From contig NZ_AP019810.1 of assembly GCF_013394305.1 (NCBI RefSeq), forward strand, positions 2,556,001 through 2,620,000: 64,000 bases of DNA. Direction: 5' to 3'. The translations under genes and the position numbers were made by a program. Positions 45,871 to 59,065 of this stretch are shown here, in pieces (position 1 is the stretch's first letter; the number at the start of each line of letters is the position of its first letter). This DNA is from Enterococcus mundtii. Its GTDB lineage: Bacteria > Bacillota > Bacilli > Lactobacillales > Enterococcaceae. Below the pieces are notes generated by a model. That model was not told the origin of the DNA. It ran no database searches and saw only the letters and a list, made by a program, of their open reading frames with translations.

Positions 45871-48330
45871 ATGAAAAAGGATTACAAAAAAAGTATGGAT
45901 CAAAAGGCACGTGCCAAACGGCGATCAAAAAAAACAATATTGATAGGTACGTCGATAGCAGCAGGGGTGATGTTAGGGGTTACTCCGATTTCAATTGTGA
46001 CACCTTTATTTACCCTTGGCACACATCAAGCATATGCGGATGTGGTCAGTGGACAAATATTCAATACTTTGACTACAGCTAATACAAGTGGCACAACAGC
46101 TTCAGCTCCTTATCAACTTAGTGGGGCGACTAGAAATGTCGACTTTACGATTTCAGGAGAAAATGGAATCAATGTTAATTTATTGAATGGTACGAGACGA
46201 GCAGTCTTAGTGATCCCAGAAGAAATGCAGGGACTTGTTTCCCCAGCAGGCGCTGGGACTTTTCAAACAGATATATTACTTCCACAAGATGAATTAGCTC
46301 CACTGCTGAATGCAGTAAATAGTGCGGTCACTCCTTTAATCACAGCGATTGATACCTTGTTGGGGGCAAATCCATTAGCAAGTGTGAATCTTGCTGAAGT
46401 TTACGAGCAGTTGAACTTATTACAAAATCTAAGTACGTTGACTTCTGCTGAAGTGCAAATTCCACTGCAAGTACAAGGGGACGAATATATCTATGGTGAA
46501 CTGGATGGGGCACTTGAAACAGTTGTCAGAGAGGGATTAACAGAAATATTAACTGATTTGAACAATGCCGTTCAGGCGTTACAAGCAACTGGAAATGGGG
46601 TTTTAGGAAATGCGGCAGCTGGGATTGTTAATACTGCATTAGCTGCGACTGTAAAACCAGCATTTAACTTAGCATTTGCTACTGCAACAGGACTATTAGG
46701 TCCAACTTCTTCTTTGGTTGGTGTTGTAGCAGATGCGAGTGTGCTAGGAGGAACAGAAATCACAATCCCGACAACGATCCAAGATCCTAATTATGCTGAT
46801 TTAGCAAATGCAGGGATCGATTTATCAACTCCTTATGAAGCAGGCTTTGTTGGAACTGTTGTGAAAGCAGATGTGTTGAACCTTAATGTGGGTTCCACTA
46901 CTGACGGCTATTCACCGATTTTTTACCAAGCAGCCGAAGTAACTGCGCCTTATAATGTTGAAGTTACAGGAAATTCAACAGAAGGATATGAAGTCACTGG
47001 GTTGGCCGATCCAAATACTACAGTGCGGATCTATGACGATGCCAACAATTTGATCGCAGAAGGTCAAGCCGATGGGACAGGAGCATTTACGATACCGATT
47101 TCTCAAGATGATGTTGCGCCACTTGATGATATCCAATTAATTGCCTACGATCAAAACGACAATCCAAGTTTACCAACGGCGGCAATTATTCCGGATGATG
47201 AAGAGGCTGACGCTGATGCCGATGCGGATGCTGACGCTGATGCTGACGCGGATGCTGACGCGGATGCGGATGCTGACGCGGATGCGGATGCTGACGCGGA
47301 TGCGGATGCCGATGCGGATGCTGATGCCGATGCCGATGCTGATGCTGATGCTGACGCCGATGCTGACGCGGATGCTGACGCTGATGCTGACGCTGATGCT
47401 GATGCTGATGCGGATGCTGACGCGGATGCCGACGCTGATGCGGATGCTGACGCGGATGCGGATGCCGATGCTGATGCTGACGCCGATGCGGATGCTGACG
47501 CTGATGCTGACGCCGACGCCGATGCTGACGCCGATGCTGATGCTGACGCGGATGCCGACGCGGATGCCGACGCGGATGCCGATGCTGATGCTGACGCTGA
47601 TGCGGATGCTGACGCCGACGCCGATGCTGACGCCGATGCTGATGCTGACGCGGATGCCGATGCGGATGCTGACGCGGATGCGGATGCTGACGCTGATGCT
47701 GATGCCGACGCCGATGCGGATGCTGACGCTGACGCGGATGCCGATGCCGATGCTGATGCTGACGCCGATGCTGACGCTGATGCGGATGCTGACGCTGATG
47801 CGGATGCCGATGCGGATGCGGATGCCGACGCGGATGCCGATGCTGACGCCGATGCTGACGCTGATGCGGATGCGGATGCTGATGCGGATGCCGACGCCGA
47901 CGCGGATGCCGATGCTGATGCTGACGCCGATGCGGATGCGGATGCCGACGCCGACGCCGACGCCGATGCGGATGCGGATGCGGATGCGGATGCTGACGCT
48001 GACGCTGATGCGGATGCTGACGCGGATGCGGATGCTGACGCGGATGCTGATGGTCGTCTAGGTGGGATTGGAAGCAACGGGGGTGGAGCAGGAAATAATC
48101 CAGATGGAGATCCAGTTGGCTTGTTCCTAAGTACTCGTGGAACAAGCAACCAATCTGGTTGGACTTCTGCTAGAAACGGAGTGAATCCTAGTGGTCACCA
48201 CTCAGCGACACCGAAAATGTATCCTAAAACAGCTGAGCATTCATCTGTTGCCACTTCTTGGTTAGGTGCGATCACAGCACTACTTTCGGGAATTGGTATC
48301 TGGAAATCTAAAAAAAATAAAGAAGATTAA
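45871..48330 (+). CDS. Wall-anchored surface protein with giant Ala-Asp repeat
   Basis: An 819-residue surface protein. A long basic N terminus and hydrophobic core (about 22-50) form a signal peptide ending near HQAYA at residue 57. Residues about 60-355 form a non-repetitive head like the adhesive domains of staphylococcal and enterococcal surface proteins. One Ig-like domain follows (about 362-440, with [18 protein letters not shown]). Residues 446-727 are 141 perfect Ala-Asp dipeptides. The C terminus has YPKTAEHS, a hydrophobic helix and the charged tail KSKKNKED, so sortase anchoring is likely although the motif differs from LPxTG. The (AD)n stalk is presumably an acidic extended spacer, like Ser-Asp repeats of Clf/Sdr proteins. 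Ligand unknown. Confidence 0.85.
47206..48051 (+). repeat. 846-base GCNGAY tandem repeat coding for (Ala-Asp)141
   Basis: Every six bases encode Ala-Asp with no substitution. Ala is written as GCT, GCC or GCG and, as far as I can see, never GCA, although GCA is common in the rest of the gene. Asp alternates GAT and GAC. The mixture prevents identical long units while keeping the protein perfectly periodic. Confidence 0.95.
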
Positions 48331-48349
48331 TGAACAGGAACTAGAAAAT

Positions 48350-48394
48350 TAGCTATGACAATCGGAAAATTGTCTGCTTGTCATAGCTATTTCT
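48350..48394 (+). terminator. Terminator after the repeat surface protein
   Basis: TAGCTATGACAA (48350-48361) pairs perfectly with TTGTCATAGCTA (48378-48389), followed by TTTCT. It separates the surface protein from the ligase cassette. Confidence 0.8.
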
Positions 48395-48409
48395 GATAGA
48401 GGTGATATG

Positions 48410-50083
48410 ATGCTAGTGCAGACGCGTAATAAACTCTCGATACTTAAAGATATCTTGGATACTACAGGAATGGAAACAGAGAGAAAAACAGCTATCATTA
48501 CTACTGGTGAAAACAAAGAACGTGGAAAAACGATGGAGTTTTATGGGAAAAACATCTCTCAACTTTGGAATAATATCGTAACTGCTTATCAAATGAATCA
48601 ATGGGACAAAAACTCTTATGTAAGAGTGGATCTTGTAACCGAAGAAGAAAAAATAGACTTCGACTTGTTGAACCAAAAATTAAAAAAAATCAAGCGCAAT
48701 AATTATATAGATTTTAATTTACGATTTGATGGAATAAGGAAACGATCTTTTTTAAAAGAAGAATTAGTAGGAAATGCCATTATCAAACCGGCTAAAACAC
48801 ATATTGTTGGCAAAAATCATCCGAATCTACAAATTGACCCACAGAATTTTCGAGGATATGTGAAACGTAAATATAATCGAGAAGAGGCGGATTTAAGTTA
48901 CTTAGCGCGCTCAAACGTTTATCTTTTTAAGACAAAAGCTTATTATATTGAAAACAATCAAGTAATCAAGCTTGAAGATTACGGAAATGGAAATCAGGTG
49001 AGAAGGATCACTGAAGAGTCTTTGAATGAAGTGACTGATTCCGTCATAAGAGAAGGAAGTAAGTATCTAAAAGGACAGCTAACTGACACTGGACAGTTTA
49101 TCTACGGTTATTATCCTTGTTATGATCAATTAATCAAGGGCTATAATTCAGTCAGACATTTCTCTTCATTATATGCGTTGATTGAAGCTGCTGAGTATTT
49201 CTCAGACCATGAACTGTTGCTACAGGCAGAAAAAGGTCTTGCTTGGGGTATCGAAAACTTAACAATGAATGAACAGGGATACTTTTTGGTCAAAGACTTT
49301 TTCAATAAAGAGATTGAATACAAATTAGGTGCCCAAGCAACTGCAATTTTAGCAATCGCAAAATATGTCCAAGTATCCGAGGACGTTTTTTATAAAAAAT
49401 ACTTGAAACAACTTGTTGATACGATTTCTAGGAAATTTCTCTCAATAGACAACCAAACAATCCATGTCCTGGATAAACAATTGACGGTCAAAGAGCATTT
49501 TCGAATCATTTATTATGATGGGGAAGCCTTGTTTTCTTTGTTAAGAGCGTATGAGATTCTTAATGATCCTAAGATTTTTAGTACGTGTGAAATCTTGATG
49601 GAACATTTTGTCACGGAAGATTATCAAAAATATCACGATCATTGGTTGAGTTATGCGACAAACGAGATGCTAAAATATAAACAAAAAATTGACTATTATC
49701 GTTTTGGAATCAAAAATGCCCTTGAAAATATCAACTTTATTGAGCAGAGAGACACTGCCTATCCGACAATGCTTGAATTACTTGTGGCAGCGTCCAAAAT
49801 GATGAGGAAACTGGAACATAGTGAACTAAAAAATGAACTTTTCAATACGCAAAATGATTTCATTGAAGTAAAGGAAAGAATCGATACAGTGATGAAGAAG
49901 CGTGTTTCTCATGAAATCAAAACAGGAGTCATGTTTCCAGAATATGCGCTTTTCTTTAAAAAACCGGTTCGTATCAGCTATGGTTTTTTTGCAAGGCATG
50001 ATCGTTTTCGTATGCGGATCGATGATGCAGAACATTTTTTGTCAGGATTGATCAATTATCAAAGCCACTATAAAAAGGAGTGA
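48410..50083 (+). CDS. Uncharacterised 557-residue protein with helical-barrel-like repeats
   Basis: No confident family. There is no signal peptide or membrane segment, so it is probably cytoplasmic. The first ~190 residues are charged and mixed alpha/beta. From about residue 205 regular helical pairs with aromatic caps appear: GYYPCYDQLIKGYNSVRHF, ALIEAAEYF, AEKGLAWGIENL, LGAQATAILAIAKY, YYDGEALFSLLRAYEIL and YPTMLELLVAASKMM. This pattern resembles alpha6/alpha6-barrel enzymes (glycosidases, epimerases or lyases acting on polymers). ATG 48410 is favoured over 48407 by spacing from AGAGGTGA. Its stop lies in the ribosome site of the next small gene, and a MurF-like ligase follows, so the three form one operon. 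It may process or modify a polymer made by the ligase; speculative. Confidence 0.6.
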   Translation: MLVQTRNKLSILKDILDTTGMETERKTAIITTGENKERGKTMEFYGKNISQLWNNIVTAYQMNQWDKNSYVRVDLVTEEEKIDFDLLNQKLKKIKRNNYIDFNLRFDGIRKRSFLKEELVGNAIIKPAKTHIVGKNHPNLQIDPQNFRGYVKRKYNREEADLSYLARSNVYLFKTKAYYIENNQVIKLEDYGNGNQVRRITEESLNEVTDSVIREGSKYLKGQLTDTGQFIYGYYPCYDQLIKGYNSVRHFSSLYALIEAAEYFSDHELLLQAEKGLAWGIENLTMNEQGYFLVKDFFNKEIEYKLGAQATAILAIAKYVQVSEDVFYKKYLKQLVDTISRKFLSIDNQTIHVLDKQLTVKEHFRIIYYDGEALFSLLRAYEILNDPKIFSTCEILMEHFVTEDYQKYHDHWLSYATNEMLKYKQKIDYYRFGIKNALENINFIEQRDTAYPTMLELLVAASKMMRKLEHSELKNELFNTQNDFIEVKERIDTVMKKRVSHEIKTGVMFPEYALFFKKPVRISYGFFARHDRFRMRIDDAEHFLSGLINYQSHYKKE

Positions 50084-50088
50084 ATAAG

Positions 50089-50328
50089 ATGGTTGCATTT
50101 ATTCGTTTTGCAGCATTGGCATTGATCGGGATTTCCTATTTAGGTTATCGTATAAAAAAGAAAAAACATCACCAAACAGAATCGCTAGAGACGGATCTGA
50201 GCCAATACGAGAAAAATGAAGAAGGACTTTACCCTTGGGAAGTTGATGCCGATGACTCGCCTAAGCGAATTGATCAAAAAGCAAGAAGATATGTCAATCA
50301 AGCAAGACCTAAGCGTGGAAAATGGTAA
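50089..50328 (+). CDS. Small single-helix membrane protein of the ligase cassette
   Basis: A 79-residue protein with an N-terminal membrane helix (about 2-19, FIRFAALALIGISYLGY), a KKKKHH basic stop, then an acidic and finally a basic cytoplasmic tail ending QARPKRGKW. ATG 50089 is eight bases after GGAG; the GTG at 50080 overlaps it. It lies between the helical-barrel protein and the ligase, six bases after one and 17 before the other. It could be a membrane anchor or scaffold that docks the soluble partners, comparable in size and position, though not visibly in sequence, to small subunits of polyglutamate synthases. No family recognised. Confidence 0.6.
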   Translation: MVAFIRFAALALIGISYLGYRIKKKKHHQTESLETDLSQYEKNEEGLYPWEVDADDSPKRIDQKARRYVNQARPKRGKW

Positions 50329-50345
50329 ACAAAGTAGGTGGAAAG

Positions 50346-51818
50346 ATGAATACGATCAAGCAATTACTTAGTGATATCGAAGGTTCATATTTTAAAGAGT
50401 ATGCTAGTTTGGATCAGGAGATCAATCAACTTGAGTACTTTTCTGGACATCTTAAACGTACGAAAGATTATTCTAAAACATTATTTGTCTGTATAACAAA
50501 TGAACGGCGTCAATATATCAATCAAATGCGTCCAGTCAAATGGGCGGATGGAAATGAACAAATCAAAGGCAAGGAAAATCAATTTGCTTTGATTGTCACA
50601 GAACATCCAATCGAAGACCCGCGTGTGACGACACCGCAATTCATTGTCCAAGATAGCTGGCGTTTCTTATTGGAATTTGCCAATCAAATGCGGCAATCGT
50701 TCAAAAAAACGGTGATTGCGATTACTGGTTCTGCTGGAAAAACATCTACACGTATGATGATCACCCATGCATTCAAAGAAGAAAAAGTTCTAGAAAATCG
50801 TGGAAATCATAATGTGAGATTTGCGATTCCTCTTTATTTAAGTCAGTTAGTAGGGGATTTTGACTTATTGAACCTTGAAGTATCTCTCAATGCGTTGAAT
50901 ACGTATGATACGGGTTCAATGTCTAGTCTAATACAACCCGATATAGCCATCGTGACTTCGATAGGTGAAGCACATCTTAGTTCCTTAAAAACAACTAAGA
51001 ATGTCGCTTACTACAAATCAAAAATCTTTGACGGTTTAAAACAGAATGGTACAGCAATCATCAACACCGATATGGGTGCTGAAGAGTTAGCTATACTCAT
51101 TCAAGCAGCCGAAAAGAAAACAACTGAAATTTTTACTTATTCGCTATATGATACAAGTAGAGATGTCCATGTCTTGTCCATTGAACAGAAAAAAGAGTTT
51201 TGTGAAGTAGGTATCCGTTTTTTTGAACAAGAGTTCAAGATCCGTCTCAGTGTTCCATCTTCTGGGATGATTTCCAATGCTTTGGCAACGCTGATAGCCA
51301 TTTGGAAAATCAAAGGAGATGTTTCAGCTTATCTTACCACCTTCGAGACATTCAAGCCGTTACCTAAAATTTTAGAAAAACATGTTTATCCAAATGAACC
51401 TTCTTTCACTTTTATTGATGATACACACAATGCGTCATTACCCTCTATGAAAAATGCAATCGACTACTTTAAAGCAGTACGCCCATTTTATAATGGAAAA
51501 TCGATATTGGTTCTAGGTCAAATCGCGGATTTAGGAAATGCTTCTGCAAATGTCCATCAGCAGGTGATGGAGGCATTAACAGACGTACCAGCAGATAATA
51601 TTTATGGCTATGGGGGACATTTCAGAGAATTATTCAATGAACAAAGTAAAAATGACCAGAAATACGAATGGTTTGAAACGTTACCCGAATTAACACAAAA
51701 TATCGAACAGCATTTAACGAATGATAGTATCATTTTGGCAAAGGGGTCAGTCACAGGTAGCGATTTCCATGAGATCGATAGATATATTCGTCAGTTTTCT
51801 TTGAAAGAAATGGTGTGA
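50346..51818 (+). CDS. MurF-like Mur ligase family protein
   Basis: A 490-residue ATP-dependent amide ligase homologue. The N-terminal ~115 residues do not resemble the MurF substrate domain. The ATP-binding loop is ITGSAGKTSTRMM, followed by ENRGNHNVRFAIPLYLS and NLEVSLNA, the metal-binding region. IVTSIGEAHLSSL carries the conserved Gly-Glu-Ala-His segment, and FIDDTHNASLPSMKNAI matches the MurF Asp-Asp-x-x-Asn-Ala-x-x-x-Ser-Met motif. All main ATP and Mg2+ motifs are present, so it is probably active, but not as the housekeeping MurF. It may add amino acids to a carboxylate acceptor or build a peptide polymer. ATG 50346 follows GTAGGTGG. Confidence 0.75.
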   Translation: MNTIKQLLSDIEGSYFKEYASLDQEINQLEYFSGHLKRTKDYSKTLFVCITNERRQYINQMRPVKWADGNEQIKGKENQFALIVTEHPIEDPRVTTPQFIVQDSWRFLLEFANQMRQSFKKTVIAITGSAGKTSTRMMITHAFKEEKVLENRGNHNVRFAIPLYLSQLVGDFDLLNLEVSLNALNTYDTGSMSSLIQPDIAIVTSIGEAHLSSLKTTKNVAYYKSKIFDGLKQNGTAIINTDMGAEELAILIQAAEKKTTEIFTYSLYDTSRDVHVLSIEQKKEFCEVGIRFFEQEFKIRLSVPSSGMISNALATLIAIWKIKGDVSAYLTTFETFKPLPKILEKHVYPNEPSFTFIDDTHNASLPSMKNAIDYFKAVRPFYNGKSILVLGQIADLGNASANVHQQVMEALTDVPADNIYGYGGHFRELFNEQSKNDQKYEWFETLPELTQNIEQHLTNDSIILAKGSVTGSDFHEIDRYIRQFSLKEMV

Positions 51819-52233
51819 GCTCTCGCATACGGGGAGCTACTAGAACGTTTTAACAACATTTACTTGAACAATCACTTATAACAAATAAAAAAAGACGGAG
51901 AGAACGGAGAAGTTGTTTCATTTCCTGATTTCTCCGCTTTTTTTTGCTGGAAATGCTTAATAGGAAGGCATAAACAAAGTTAAAAAAACTAGTTTTTTTA
52001 ATTTATTGAACAAAAAATCATAAAAATCCAATAAAACGTATAAAAAGAATCGCTTTCTTTCTTTTCTGTTTATGCGCCCTATGGTATGATAATTAAGAAT
52101 TTTACAAAAAAATACATATGAATCACGAAGAAAAACACTATTTTTTAAAGTTTTATTAGGATTAAGTAGTTGGATTGCTGAATGATTGGGTGTATGAGAG
52201 AATAATCAAGAATATGTATGATAGAGGTGTAGT
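51819..52233. other. 415-base gap between the ligase cassette and the LCP gene
   Basis: Contains one terminator (51905-51945) and then an AT-rich promoter region. TATGATAAT near 52084-52092 is a plausible -10 without a convincing -35. No gene seen. Confidence 0.5.
51905..51945 (+). terminator. Terminator after the MurF-like ligase gene
   Basis: CGGAGAA (51905-51911) pairs with TTCTCCG (51930-51936), with a run of eight T. It closes the three-gene cassette. Confidence 0.85.
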
Positions 52234-53846: not shown

Positions 53847-55610
53847 ATGAAAAGAAATGTTCGTCTAAAGAAATTATTGGCTGGCGCTGCATTATGCAGT
53901 CTGCTAGTCGCACCATTGTTTTTGAATGAACAACAAAGTGCAGCAACAGAACAAACAATCAAAACAACACCTGATTTTGGTGTAGGTCAAGGTATTGAAT
54001 GGCCAGAACAAGTCGTTGCACCATTTGTTGATATGACAGCTTATACATCAGGTACAGAGTTGTCGAATAATGGCGCGTTGAATCTAGCGGCAATTGCAAA
54101 GGAAACTGGGCAAAAATTCTTTAATTTAGGATTCATGCAAGCGAAAGGAATCAAAGATGGTAAGATCGATTGGGCATGGGGCGGATTTGCCGGATTGAGT
54201 GAGAATGACAGTGATCAATGGCAATATGAAGGTATCAAAAAAACGATCCGTGAATTAAGAGTGGTTGGTGGAGATGCTGCTGTTTCATTTGGTGGACTGA
54301 ACACAGGTGCTTTCTGGGAAGTCAGCCATGATGAAGATATGCTTTATGATGCTTATATGGAAGTGGTTCAAGGATATGGCTTTACTCGTGTAGATTTTGA
54401 CGTGGAAGCAGGGGCGATGGGCTATACAGAAAACTTACTCAATGCGAAAGCAGTCAAACGACTACAAGATACTACAGGAGTACAAGTAACGTTGACATTA
54501 CCTGTTATGCCGACTGGTTTGATTTCGACTGGACTATCCGTATTGCAAGCTTATTTAGAAGCAGGTGTCGATTTGACCAATGTCAATATTATGACGATGT
54601 GTTATGGTCCGAGCGTCATTGATTATGCACAAGGATCATTAGATGCGGTCGACAATACAATGGTCCAATTGAAGAATCATTATCGCCAATATGCTGGTAT
54701 CACTTTGACTGATGAAGAAGCGTATGCAAAATTAGGTACAACTCCTTCGATTGGTTTTGAGAACGAACAACATCCGTACTTCACGACAGAAATGTTCAAT
54801 CAAGTTGTCGAACATGCAAGAGAACGTAAAATTGGTATGGTTTCTTATTGGTCGATGAACCGTGATGCAAAAACAGATGGTGGACAAGGACAAATAAAGA
54901 ACCAATTTGAATTCTTAAAAGTGAGTGAAGCATTTGCTGAAGGTAATGAGGGCGGCGGAAGCGAAACTCCGGAAGATAAAGAAAAACCGTCTGTTCCGAC
55001 AAATCTTTCTGTTGGGGACATTACAAAAAATAGTGCGCATATCAACTGGACGGCGGCGACTGACAATGACCGTGTGGCAAAATATAACCTGAGATTAGTA
55101 GGGAATGGACAAACGATCAATGTTACGACTACTTCTCTTTCATACGCGTTTGCAAACTTAAAAGCCGATACAGAATATATGGTAGAAATCAATGCAGAAG
55201 ATCGTTCTGGAAATATTTCGGATACGGCAAAAGTTGCATTCACAACTTTAGCGGATGTAGTAGATCCAGAGGAGCCGGGAGAACCTGGTGAACCAGGGGA
55301 GGCACCTGCATGGGAGGCGACAAAGGTTTATTTAGGTGGAGAAGTTGTATCTTATAAAGGTGCTTTATATCGCGCTAAGCATTGGACGCAAAACAATGTA
55401 CCGAGCGAGTCAGGCCAATATGGTCCTTGGGAATTGATTTCAGGAACGCCAGAAGGTGGCGATGAGATCGCCGCGTGGGAAGCGAATAAAGTTTATGTAC
55501 AAGGAAATCGAGTGATGTATAATGGGATCGTTTATGAAGCGCAATATTGGACACAAAACAACAAGCCAAGCGAAGCTGGATTGTACGGTCCTTGGAAACA
55601 GGTTGGATAA
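53847..55610 (+). CDS. Secreted GH18 chitinase with Fn3 and two chitin-binding modules
   Basis: A 587-residue secreted endo-acting-type chitinase. The signal peptide (about 1-33) reads LLAGAALCSLLVAPLFL. The GH18 barrel (about 45-365) has AAVSFGG on strand three and the catalytic FTRVDFDVE, where the two Asp and the proton-donor Glu are kept but the first Asp of DxxDxDxE is Thr. MPTGL, NIMTMCYG and VSYWSMNRD complete the barrel. A Fn3 domain (about 385-468) and two CBM5/12 modules follow (about 487-530 and 545-587), each with AWEAxKVY and YxAxxWTQNN. Paralogue of the gene at 56572, which has only one binding module. The signal peptide and lack of LPxTG indicate release. Confidence 0.93.
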   Translation: MKRNVRLKKLLAGAALCSLLVAPLFLNEQQSAATEQTIKTTPDFGVGQGIEWPEQVVAPFVDMTAYTSGTELSNNGALNLAAIAKETGQKFFNLGFMQAKGIKDGKIDWAWGGFAGLSENDSDQWQYEGIKKTIRELRVVGGDAAVSFGGLNTGAFWEVSHDEDMLYDAYMEVVQGYGFTRVDFDVEAGAMGYTENLLNAKAVKRLQDTTGVQVTLTLPVMPTGLISTGLSVLQAYLEAGVDLTNVNIMTMCYGPSVIDYAQGSLDAVDNTMVQLKNHYRQYAGITLTDEEAYAKLGTTPSIGFENEQHPYFTTEMFNQVVEHARERKIGMVSYWSMNRDAKTDGGQGQIKNQFEFLKVSEAFAEGNEGGGSETPEDKEKPSVPTNLSVGDITKNSAHINWTAATDNDRVAKYNLRLVGNGQTINVTTTSLSYAFANLKADTEYMVEINAEDRSGNISDTAKVAFTTLADVVDPEEPGEPGEPGEAPAWEATKVYLGGEVVSYKGALYRAKHWTQNNVPSESGQYGPWELISGTPEGGDEIAAWEANKVYVQGNRVMYNGIVYEAQYWTQNNKPSEAGLYGPWKQVG

Positions 55611-56206: not shown

Positions 56207-56571
56207 AACAAAAACTCCTTTCTTTAGACAGTTTAACATAATTATTTATAACAGCACCTATTTATGTCTTGTGATTTATTAAGTTATTTTAAAAAATGTT
56301 GATATAGCGTACATATTGACCGAAATAAATTAGTGACGAGGTGATTAAATCGGTGATAAAAGCTTTTTTAGATTGATTTTTAAACGTTGTTGCAATACCG
56401 AACATTTTTGTTTTTACTTTTTTATTTAACTATAAAACGGGGATAAAACGATTAAATAACCTTAATTTCTTTTTTGTTTTCGTTATATTATTTTGAGTTA
56501 TCTGATATTATAAAATTTGTAATCGATTACGAACAAGGAAATGAATTAGTTGAATGAGGAGAGTTTGGAAA
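56207..56571. other. 365-base divergent region between tspO and chitinase 2
   Basis: AT-rich, with no gene. It includes the tspO ribosome site, AT-rich promoter-like sequence (TATTATAAAAT around 56506-56515) and the cre-like palindrome at 56518-56531. Confidence 0.5.
56518..56531. promoter_or_regulatory. cre-like CcpA site before chitinase 2
   Basis: TGTAATCGATTACG matches 13 of 14 positions of the catabolite-responsive consensus TGWNANCGNTNWCA (last A is G) and contains a 12-base perfect palindrome. It lies about 40 bases before the ATG, where a bound repressor would block transcription. Confidence 0.55.
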
Positions 56572-58122
56572 ATGAAGAAAAAAAGTGTAAAAAGATTATT
56601 AGCTGGAGCAGCATTGTGTAGCTTATTAGTTGCACCGTTGTTTTTAAATGAAGAGCAAGGAGCGGCAACAGTGCAAACAGTTCGCGCAACACCTGATTTT
56701 GGTGTAGGTCAAGGAATCGAGTGGCCAGAACAAGTCGTAGCGCCATTCGTAGATATCACGGCGTATACTTCAGATGAAGTACTGTCAAATAAAGGTGCCT
56801 TGAATATGGCAGCAATTGCTAGAGAAACAGGTCAGCGTTTCTTTAATCTAGGGTTTATGCAAGCTAGAGGGATCAAAAATGGGAAACTTGATTGGGCTTG
56901 GGGAAACTTCAATGGATTGAGTGAAAGTGATAGTGACCAATGGCAATATGAAGGAATCAAGCAATCGATCCGTGAGTTAAGAGAAGTAGGCGGAGATGCA
57001 GCTGTGTCATTTGGCGGATTAAATTCTGGTGCCTTCTGGGAAGTAACGCAAGATGAAGATATGCTTTATGATGCTTACATGGAAGTTATCCAAGGTTATG
57101 GTTTTACACGTATTGACTTTGACGTAGAAGCTGCTGCTATGGGGTACCACGAAAATTTAGCAAATGCGAAAGCAGTAAAACGATTACAAGATGCAACTGG
57201 GGTTGACGTGACGTTGACATTACCAGTTATGCCTACAGGATTGATCTCAACAGGATTATCTGTCTTGCAAGCTTATTTAGAAGCGGGTGTTGACTTAACT
57301 AACGTGAATATCATGACGATGTGTTATGGATCAAGTGTTACAGACTATGCGCAAGGTTCGTTAGATGCGGTAGACAATACTATGGTCCAATTGAAAAATC
57401 ACTACAAACAATACGCTGGTAAAACATTAACGGATGAGCAAGCTTATGCAAAATTAGGTACGACTCCTTCTGTAGGATTTGAAAATGAACAACATCCTTA
57501 CTTTACAACAGATATGTTCAACTTAGTTGTACAACATGCCAAAGAACGCAAAATCGGTATGGTCTCATACTGGTCAATGAATCGTGATGCCAGAGTAGAT
57601 GGCGGACAAGGGCAAGTGAAAAATCAATATGAATTCTTAACTGTGGGTCAAAGATTTACAGATGGTTCTGAGATGCCTGAAGATACACAAAATCCATCAA
57701 CACCGACAAATGTAGGTTCAGATTTCATTACGACACAGCGTGCGCGTATCAATTGGACGGCATCAACGGATAATGACCGCATTGCTCGTTATAACCTTAA
57801 ATTAACTGGTGCAGGCGAAACAGTATCAGCGACAACAATGGCTGTTTCTCATACCTTTGAAAACTTGAAGAGCAATACGACTTACACAGTTGAAGTGATT
57901 GCAGAAGACCGTTCTGGAAATGTTTCGGATGCAGCAACTTATACTTTTACTACGCTTGAAGAATCAGAATCTACTCTGCCCGCTTGGGACCCTGCAACAG
58001 TTTACTTAGGTGGAGAGCGTGTTACATATGAAGGGCTGATCTATGAAGCGAGACATTGGACACAAAACGATATTCCAAGTGAATCTGGTCCTTATGGTCC
58101 ATGGAGACTTGTGACTAAATAA
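56572..58122 (+). CDS. Secreted GH18 chitinase with Fn3 and one chitin-binding module
   Basis: A 516-residue secreted chitinase, strongly similar along its whole length to the one at 53847 (same signal peptide core, GVGQGIEWPEQVVAPFVD, FTRIDFDVE, NIMTMCYG). The order is a signal peptide (about 1-31), GH18 barrel (about 43-360), Fn3 (about 380-465) and a single CBM5/12 (about 475-516, PAWDPATVYLGGERV). ATG 56572 is used; GAGGAGAG lies eight bases upstream, while the ATG at 56554 overlaps it. It is a tandem paralogue that lacks the second binding module, so the two may prefer different chitin forms. A cre-like site upstream suggests glucose repression. Confidence 0.93.
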   Translation: MKKKSVKRLLAGAALCSLLVAPLFLNEEQGAATVQTVRATPDFGVGQGIEWPEQVVAPFVDITAYTSDEVLSNKGALNMAAIARETGQRFFNLGFMQARGIKNGKLDWAWGNFNGLSESDSDQWQYEGIKQSIRELREVGGDAAVSFGGLNSGAFWEVTQDEDMLYDAYMEVIQGYGFTRIDFDVEAAAMGYHENLANAKAVKRLQDATGVDVTLTLPVMPTGLISTGLSVLQAYLEAGVDLTNVNIMTMCYGSSVTDYAQGSLDAVDNTMVQLKNHYKQYAGKTLTDEQAYAKLGTTPSVGFENEQHPYFTTDMFNLVVQHAKERKIGMVSYWSMNRDARVDGGQGQVKNQYEFLTVGQRFTDGSEMPEDTQNPSTPTNVGSDFITTQRARINWTASTDNDRIARYNLKLTGAGETVSATTMAVSHTFENLKSNTTYTVEVIAEDRSGNVSDAATYTFTTLEESESTLPAWDPATVYLGGERVTYEGLIYEARHWTQNDIPSESGPYGPWRLVTK

Positions 58123-58486: not shown

Positions 58487-59065
58487 ATGAAAAAGTTTAG
58501 TATTATGATGTTCGTAGGAATTGTTATGTTAGGTTTGTTTGGTTTTGGTACATCTGGTTATGCACATGGTTATGTAACATCTCCAGGGAGTCGTGCCTAT
58601 TTCGGTACAGCAGCTGCAGGTAATTTGAATCAAAACGTTGGGCGCGCACAATGGGAACCACAAAGTATTGAAGCGCCTAAAAATACATTTATTGATGGAA
58701 AAATCGCAAGTGCAGGTGTTAGTGGGTTTGAACCATTAGATGAACAGACAGCAAATCGTTGGCATAAAAGTGTAATTAATGCTGGTCCTTTGAATATCAC
58801 TTGGAACTTAACTGCACAACATCGTACAAGTACTTGGGATTACTATATTACAAAACCAGGTTGGAACCAAAATCAACCTTTGAAATTCAGCGATTTTGAA
58901 TTGATTACAAAAATCGATGATAAAGCAACAGTTCCGCCAAAAACAGTAAATCAAACAATTACTGTTCCTCAGGATAGAAAAGGCTACAACGTGATTTTAG
59001 CTGTTTGGAATATTTCAGATACAACAAATGCGTTCTATCAAGTAATTGATGTCAATGTTCAATAG
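58487..59065 (+). CDS. AA10 lytic polysaccharide monooxygenase (chitin-active type)
   Basis: A 192-residue secreted copper enzyme that oxidatively cleaves crystalline chitin and opens it to chitinases. The signal peptide is cut before His27 (GYA|HGYVTSPGSR), which makes His27 the N-terminal half of the copper histidine brace; His112 in AQHRTSTWDYYIT is the second ligand. NAGPLNITWNLTA and NAFYQVIDVNV are typical. It has no binding module, like the E. faecalis enzyme EF0362. AGGAGG precedes the ATG. It sits behind the two chitinases with its own cre-controlled promoter, so the three form a functional unit. Confidence 0.95.
   Translation: MKKFSIMMFVGIVMLGLFGFGTSGYAHGYVTSPGSRAYFGTAAAGNLNQNVGRAQWEPQSIEAPKNTFIDGKIASAGVSGFEPLDEQTANRWHKSVINAGPLNITWNLTAQHRTSTWDYYITKPGWNQNQPLKFSDFELITKIDDKATVPPKTVNQTITVPQDRKGYNVILAVWNISDTTNAFYQVIDVNVQ

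Follow-up and report, generated by a model that had tools for sequence, protein, structure and literature searches.

What is the substrate of three tightly packed genes that follow the gene for a cell-wall adhesin of Enterococcus mundtii? The genes, here termed A, B, and C, are located in a window of 64,000 nt (contig NZ_AP019810.1, positions 2,556,001 to 2,620,000 of the forward strand). That the stalk of the adhesin is the target of the system is well supported, and the three genes probably alter this Asp-Ala stalk chemically before export, C perhaps by amidating Asp side chains and B as a presumed membrane dock. A literature search for Asp-Ala stalks or for the A-B-C gene set found no publications.

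The adhesin, the inferred substrate, is encoded at 45871 to 48330 (+ strand, as are the three genes and the hairpins described below). It contains a pAdhesive_17 domain (Pfam), an LPXTG-type anchor (NCBIfam, E 0.005), and a stalk of Asp-X dipeptides. The Asp-X tract (47209 to 48054, residues 447 to 728, 282 residues) consists of 141 dipeptides, in which X is Ala in 140 cases and Gly in one. The adhesin gene is followed by A (48407 to 50083, 558 amino acids, with a second ATG at 48410), B (50089 to 50328, 79 amino acids), and C (50346 to 51818, 490 amino acids, for which an ATG at 50322 is likewise open). The original prediction of three real genes with gaps of 5 and 17 bases holds with starts at 48407, 50089, and 50346, and its flanks are as claimed, i.e. 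an adhesin upstream and an LCP protein (Pfam) downstream of C. It had listed the adhesin among the flanks, without recognising the Asp-Ala stalk as the likely substrate.

An alignment of 18 A proteins served to search named genomes; of the 332 stretches found, the best 80 were analysed, and an A gene was called in 78 of them. An Asp-X-repeat gene, i.e. one with at least 12 tandem dipeptides, directly adjoins A in 36 of these 78 loci, which belong to Firmicutes and Proteobacteria, and the two genes share the same strand in 35 of the 36. The number is 47 when all genes within three genes of A are included, and 53 for the whole fetched stretch. For comparison, 7 of 810 genes that are more than three genes away from A have an Asp-X run (Fisher p 3e-35, uncorrected for kinship). 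From a plasmid collection with 54 A records, 12 were picked by hand for spread and to avoid contig ends, and a laxer run of six was accepted. Ten of the 12 have an Asp-X adhesin in the fetched stretch, which is not always the direct neighbour. In Agrobacterium, Rhizobium, and Klebsiella, type I secretion genes lie between A and the Asp-X adhesin, and in Staphylococcus epidermidis A is found between sdrF and a convergent glycosyltransferase gene. Within the genus, several genomes have the adhesin gene directly 5′ of A. In a survey of 99 genomes of the family, a query with the adhesin matches 54, i.e. all 22 that are A-positive as well as 32 that are A-negative; two of the 32 were inspected (G036 and G044) and have Ser-rich SAST repeats and no Asp-X. 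Asp-X repeats also occur without A, as in the Sdr proteins of Staphylococcus aureus with SdgA/SdgB. One genome of E. pallens carries five copies of A (L074 to L081), with Asp-X runs of up to ~1600 residues.

Could the three genes serve to build an independent peptide polymer or to change a wall peptide, with the adhesin as a chance neighbour? CapA-like (PGA_cap) and Ddl-like genes in some homologous loci and the LCP gene 3′ of the operon would be compatible with this explanation. It is nevertheless very unlikely, because the association with Asp-X neighbours holds across phyla, no polymerase membrane subunit is present among the three genes, and the LCP gene follows in nine loci of the genus, including the window. 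It is absent from the other clustered loci of the family (the named loci were not searched for LCP); the LCP protein was rejected as a part of the system and represents chromosomal context in the nine loci. The original idea of a surface-modification or peptide-polymer system survives in its first half: an amide-forming surface modification is plausible, but a partner for a free peptide polymer is not among the three genes.

Fusions of A with a Mur ligase account for 14 of the 78 loci, two of which are from the same Sphingobium genome; elsewhere, the fusion partner of A is a GT4 glycosyltransferase, a methyltransferase, or a PGA_cap domain. For the loci with repeats, partners were compared with the type of repeat, and Mur ligases were counted when fused to A or encoded within four genes of it. 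Ala-rich repeats are present in 16 of 19 Mur-ligase loci (many of the 16 are from enterococci), and Ser-rich repeats in all seven glycosyltransferase loci (three of which are from Klebsiella), with p 1.8e-4 over loci. The glycosyltransferases of two loci, L144 and L129, were checked, and both proved to be related to SdgB. The plasmid records fit this partner-repeat rule: four records with a Mur ligase have an Ala majority (L198, L203, L204, and L206, the first two being close kin), and three with a glycosyltransferase have a Ser majority (L197, L200, and L205). The partner enzyme seems to be matched to the stalk, which offers Ser hydroxyls to a sugar transferase and Asp carboxylates to an amide ligase. 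A further type of partner is found in Methylobacter (L159), where an A-methyltransferase fusion is encoded beside a protein with Asp-Ala/Ser repeats. Islands of E. pallens contain clusters of Mur, Ddl-like, S11-peptidase-like, and PGA_cap genes, and in Acinetobacter (L163) an S11 domain lies inside a Mur-PGA_cap protein beside A; the Ddl-like, S11-like, and PGA_cap genes and this S11 domain are a hint of D-Ala-D-Ala-like donors.

A itself has no match in Pfam or NCBIfam at E values up to 1, glycosyltransferase domains included, and matches neither PF07221 (AGE) nor PF01871 (AMMECR1) in Pfam; a sequence search of the PDB retrieved no chain at E up to 1. Its predicted structure combines a possibly AMMECR1-like N-terminal domain (residues ~22 to 201) with an epimerase-type (alpha/alpha)6 barrel as in the AGE superfamily (residues 202 to 558), which includes cellobiose 2-epimerase. 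In the fold comparison, sugar epimerases are the best matches, followed by GH76 enzymes; that an AMMECR1 or glycosyltransferase fold is missing from the match list is no proof of absence. In 69 sequences, 42 reactive or aromatic positions of A are kept in at least 97%, including H412, H543, D539, D540, E373, and R250, a pattern that resembles an active site. A candidate catalytic pair of A, the invariant H412 and H543, has the same spacing (131) as the catalytic His259 and His390 of RmCE, and the C-terminal register fits. By spacing, the invariant H353 had been a candidate for the third His of cellobiose epimerases; it was dropped because the AGE alignment places that His in an NxxMHxxE motif, which fits Y369 to E373 of A better. 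AGE genes for sequence comparison were found in none of 21 genomes searched, and then in 2 of 10 and 14 of 80 in two further searches.

These fold matches, together with the glycosyltransferases among the partners, would also be in accord with A being an epimerase or glycosidase of the AGE fold whose substrates are sugars, either already on the repeats or still to be transferred to them; C would add an amino acid to the glycan. We consider this quite unlikely, because Asp-Ala stalks contain no Ser or Thr for O-glycosylation, and AGE enzymes require a free reducing end. The sugars found on the repeats of the S. aureus adhesin Pls, according to the available part of the report, are N-acetylhexosamine (HexNAc) monosaccharides (PMC5230774), which likewise argues against it.

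The Pls locus also bears on the identity of A. The available text describes GtfC as a protein of 538 amino acids, encoded directly 3′ of pls, for which CAZy predicts no glycosyltransferase (PMC5230774). The Ser-Asp repeats of Pls are fully glycosylated only when GtfC and the convergently encoded GtfD are both present; on its own, GtfD glycosylates them weakly in strain COL and not at all in strain 1061, and GtfC by itself does not, and the repeats are resistant to pronase and thermolysin (PMC5230774). The A homologue of pWBG759 contains the primers GtfC-F (26 of 26 bases) and GtfC-R (20 of 23), and GtfC-mutF matches with 20 of 20 bases at the end of the preceding adhesin gene. At the same locus, GtfC-mutR was unmatched (at least six mismatches) and the GtfD primers had no full match. 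Length and layout of the locus are consistent with the description of GtfC (PMC5230774). On the basis of primer matches, length, and layout, GtfC is taken as a putative A-family protein. In the available part of the report GtfC is called a glycosyltransferase (PMC5230774), whereas the A family matches no glycosyltransferase model and has a different predicted fold, which suggests that GtfC is itself not a glycosyltransferase. In the plasmid collection, 9 of the 54 A records carry the name poly(glycerol-phosphate) alpha-glucosyltransferase; this name looks wrong, since in the three of the nine that were inspected (L205 to L207) no glycosyltransferase is joined to A.

GtfA/GtfB act on serine-rich adhesins, and GtfB is the non-catalytic, substrate-binding partner. 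By analogy, A might merely bind the disordered repeat, and its partner, be it a glycosyltransferase or a Mur ligase, would perform the sole chemistry. Such a role would agree with the fusion of A to differing catalytic partners and with the available data on GtfC, which alone does not glycosylate Pls and in strain COL merely enhances GtfD (PMC5230774). We regard it as unlikely, because the 42 highly conserved positions look like an active site, and because A is also found without a nearby partner gene, e.g. in Listeria. A, a putative GtfC homologue, is the conserved core of these loci: its partner may be C or a glycosyltransferase or may be absent, and most often A is found near Asp-X-repeat adhesins. 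The polymer-processing role of A in the original prediction is not supported.

B is a one-helix protein by sequence, as had been proposed: its 79 residues begin with a single hydrophobic helix, followed by a basic segment and an acidic C-terminal tail. The tail carries a YPWE motif, which is present in 27 of 27 aligned sequences, including that of the window. It adjoins A in 26 Firmicute loci, 21 times after and five times before A, also where C is missing. B may dock the enzymes at the membrane, as was suggested at the outset.

C matches Mur_ligase_M (E 5.7e-31) and Mur_ligase_C in Pfam, and the motifs GSAGKT, NRGNHN, and DDTHNASLPSM reported earlier are all found. The best NCBIfam model is murF, with 220.4 bits under a cut-off of 288.6 bits; the cyanophycin synthetase model reaches 30.1 bits and misses its cut-off of 850. 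Models for PgsB/CapB and MurT are not among the 21 families of the NCBIfam comparison, and no separate search for them was made. In the PDB, C is closest to MurF structures (1gg4, E 3.2e-25); the alignments begin at residue 68 to 88 of C, so that the first 67 or more residues, in the region expected for a UDP-MurNAc-peptide binding N-terminal domain, remain outside. The genome contains a single other match to C, a MurF-like gene with 26% identity. The gene beside it we take to be Ddl. MurF being its closest model and structure, C could be a spare MurF, an extremely improbable explanation that was rejected in view of the separate MurF-like gene, the missed murF cut-off, and the fusion of C homologues to A in other genomes; the earlier view that C is not the housekeeping enzyme stands. 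Synthesis of poly-gamma-glutamate or cyanophycin at this locus was also rejected, because C is MurF-like and no such partner is found among the three genes.

In the preferred reading, the products of the operon would act in the cytoplasm, prior to export, and modify the stalk of the adhesin whose gene precedes A. A would recognise Asp-X repeats and perform the step common to these loci, possibly a mass-silent change along the repeat, e.g. epimerisation or isomerisation, which we infer from the epimerase-type barrel with its invariant histidines. C would be recruited where the repeat has Ala in place of Ser, and would convert Asp side-chain carboxylates to acyl phosphates and further to amide bonds with an amine, which might be an amino acid or a D-Ala-D-Ala-like dipeptide. 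The role of B would be to hold A and C at the cytoplasmic side of the membrane, close to the site of export. A bolder version, speculative and as a whole unlikely, is that A epimerises the stalk Asp or its neighbour to the D form or forms an isoaspartyl link, and that C adds D-Ala-D-Ala-like peptides as murein-stem-like branches. This version would explain the requirement for GtfC despite HexNAc monosaccharides being the only sugars found, and the resistance of the repeats to thermolysin and pronase, as given in the available part of the report (PMC5230774). It would also explain Ddl-like and D,D-carboxypeptidase-like genes or domains in some homologous loci. A mass-silent action of GtfC would fit the accessible Pls data, an interpretation that is ours and not that of the authors (PMC5230774).

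The distribution of the genes in the 99 family genomes, with C counted at E up to 1e-30, is mixed with respect to the proposed co-conservation. A is present in 22 and C in 19 genomes. Of the 22 with A, 14 have C beside A or fused to it, one of these (G090) with C in two pieces; the other eight have no C beside A, two of them (G089 and G092) with C homologues elsewhere. In enterococci, the pairing of A with B is the more constant one, and C seems to be one among a number of interchangeable partners. In E. durans NBRC 100479 (L096) and in L060, C consists of two short frames without the middle part, while A and B are open. In two further loci (L090 and L091, genomes G070 and G065), a C-like ligase of 456 amino acids is encoded beside a Ddl-like gene and A is lacking, perhaps representing a different pathway.

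Several observations weigh against a stalk modification by A and C. No Asp-X gene was found in the fetched stretch of 25 of the 78 loci, in seven of which A is at a contig end, possibly because the assembly broke at long repeats. Among the plasmid records, Variovorax (L202) has no Asp-X run in the fetched stretch, nor has Acinetobacter baumannii (L199), in which a large type I secreted protein adjoins A. The partner-repeat rule has p 0.06, with two genera on both sides, when loci are collapsed by genus by hand; three Mur-partnered loci (L104, L134, and L137) have Ser- or Gly/Ser-rich repeats, and one counted as Mur/Ala (L158, S. cohnii) has merely a partial Mur gene, four genes off. As to the fold of A, the top Z score of the N-terminal domain belongs to an S-layer protein (6.5 over 74 residues) and not to AMMECR1, and at the profile level AGE enzymes are matched only weakly (probability 74.6%, residues 255 to 407 only). 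With H412 as the first catalytic His, the Glu at +3 that is invariant in 16 AGE relatives would be missing from A. Finally, the eight A-positive genomes without C next to A indicate that C is not essential to the system.

The two terminators that had been proposed to bound the operon differ. A Rho-independent terminator-like stem-loop with a long T run follows C (51887 to 51944; z −3.2 for a 142-base stretch), whereas the hairpin at 48342 to 48395 in the 76-base spacer between the adhesin gene and A (spacer −24.6 kcal/mol, z −5.1) shows no more than a weak T run and may be an attenuator. A simple terminator scan listed neither of them. Elsewhere in the window, positions 1 to 27900 contain a large polysaccharide cluster, presumably with dTDP-rhamnose genes, glycosyltransferases, an ABC exporter, and LicD-like proteins. 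Two similar secreted proteins are encoded at 53847 to 55610 and 56554 to 58122, the first with fn3 and CBM5/12 domains; by eye we take both to be chitinase-like, and a small secreted protein (58487 to 59065) appears to resemble a chitin-active oxygenase.

The analysis ties a protein family without a Pfam or NCBIfam model to one class of substrates, Asp-X stalks, a link that spans wall-anchored adhesins of Gram-positive and type I secreted adhesins of Gram-negative bacteria, and it predicts a new amide modification on Asp-Ala stalks. Among known proteins, the AGE superfamily (cellobiose 2-epimerase) probably shares its fold with the C-terminal half of A, and AMMECR1 proteins may do so with the N-terminal half, but A matches neither family in Pfam. 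Peptide epimerases with His/Asp pairs exist, albeit with another fold, as the available part of the MslH report states (PMC10406935). C shares the Mur ligase core with MurF, its closest relative by profile and by PDB sequence search, but differs in its sub-threshold score, its unaligned N-terminal part, its link to an adhesin, and the presence of a second MurF-like gene. SdgA/SdgB are likewise adjacent enzymes that modify an Asp-dipeptide stalk, SdgB acting on Ser in DSD, and in other bacteria A adjoins or is fused to SdgB-like enzymes, but the available description of Sdr glycosylation includes no A protein or amide ligase (PMC8561734). GtfC/GtfD, as far as the accessible report goes, resemble the present system in that an A-family protein is encoded directly 3′ of a repeat adhesin with a second enzyme alongside; in the window, a MurF-like ligase takes the place of the glycosyltransferase GtfD, B is present in addition, and the stalk is Asp-Ala, whereas that of Pls is mainly Ser-Asp (PMC5230774).

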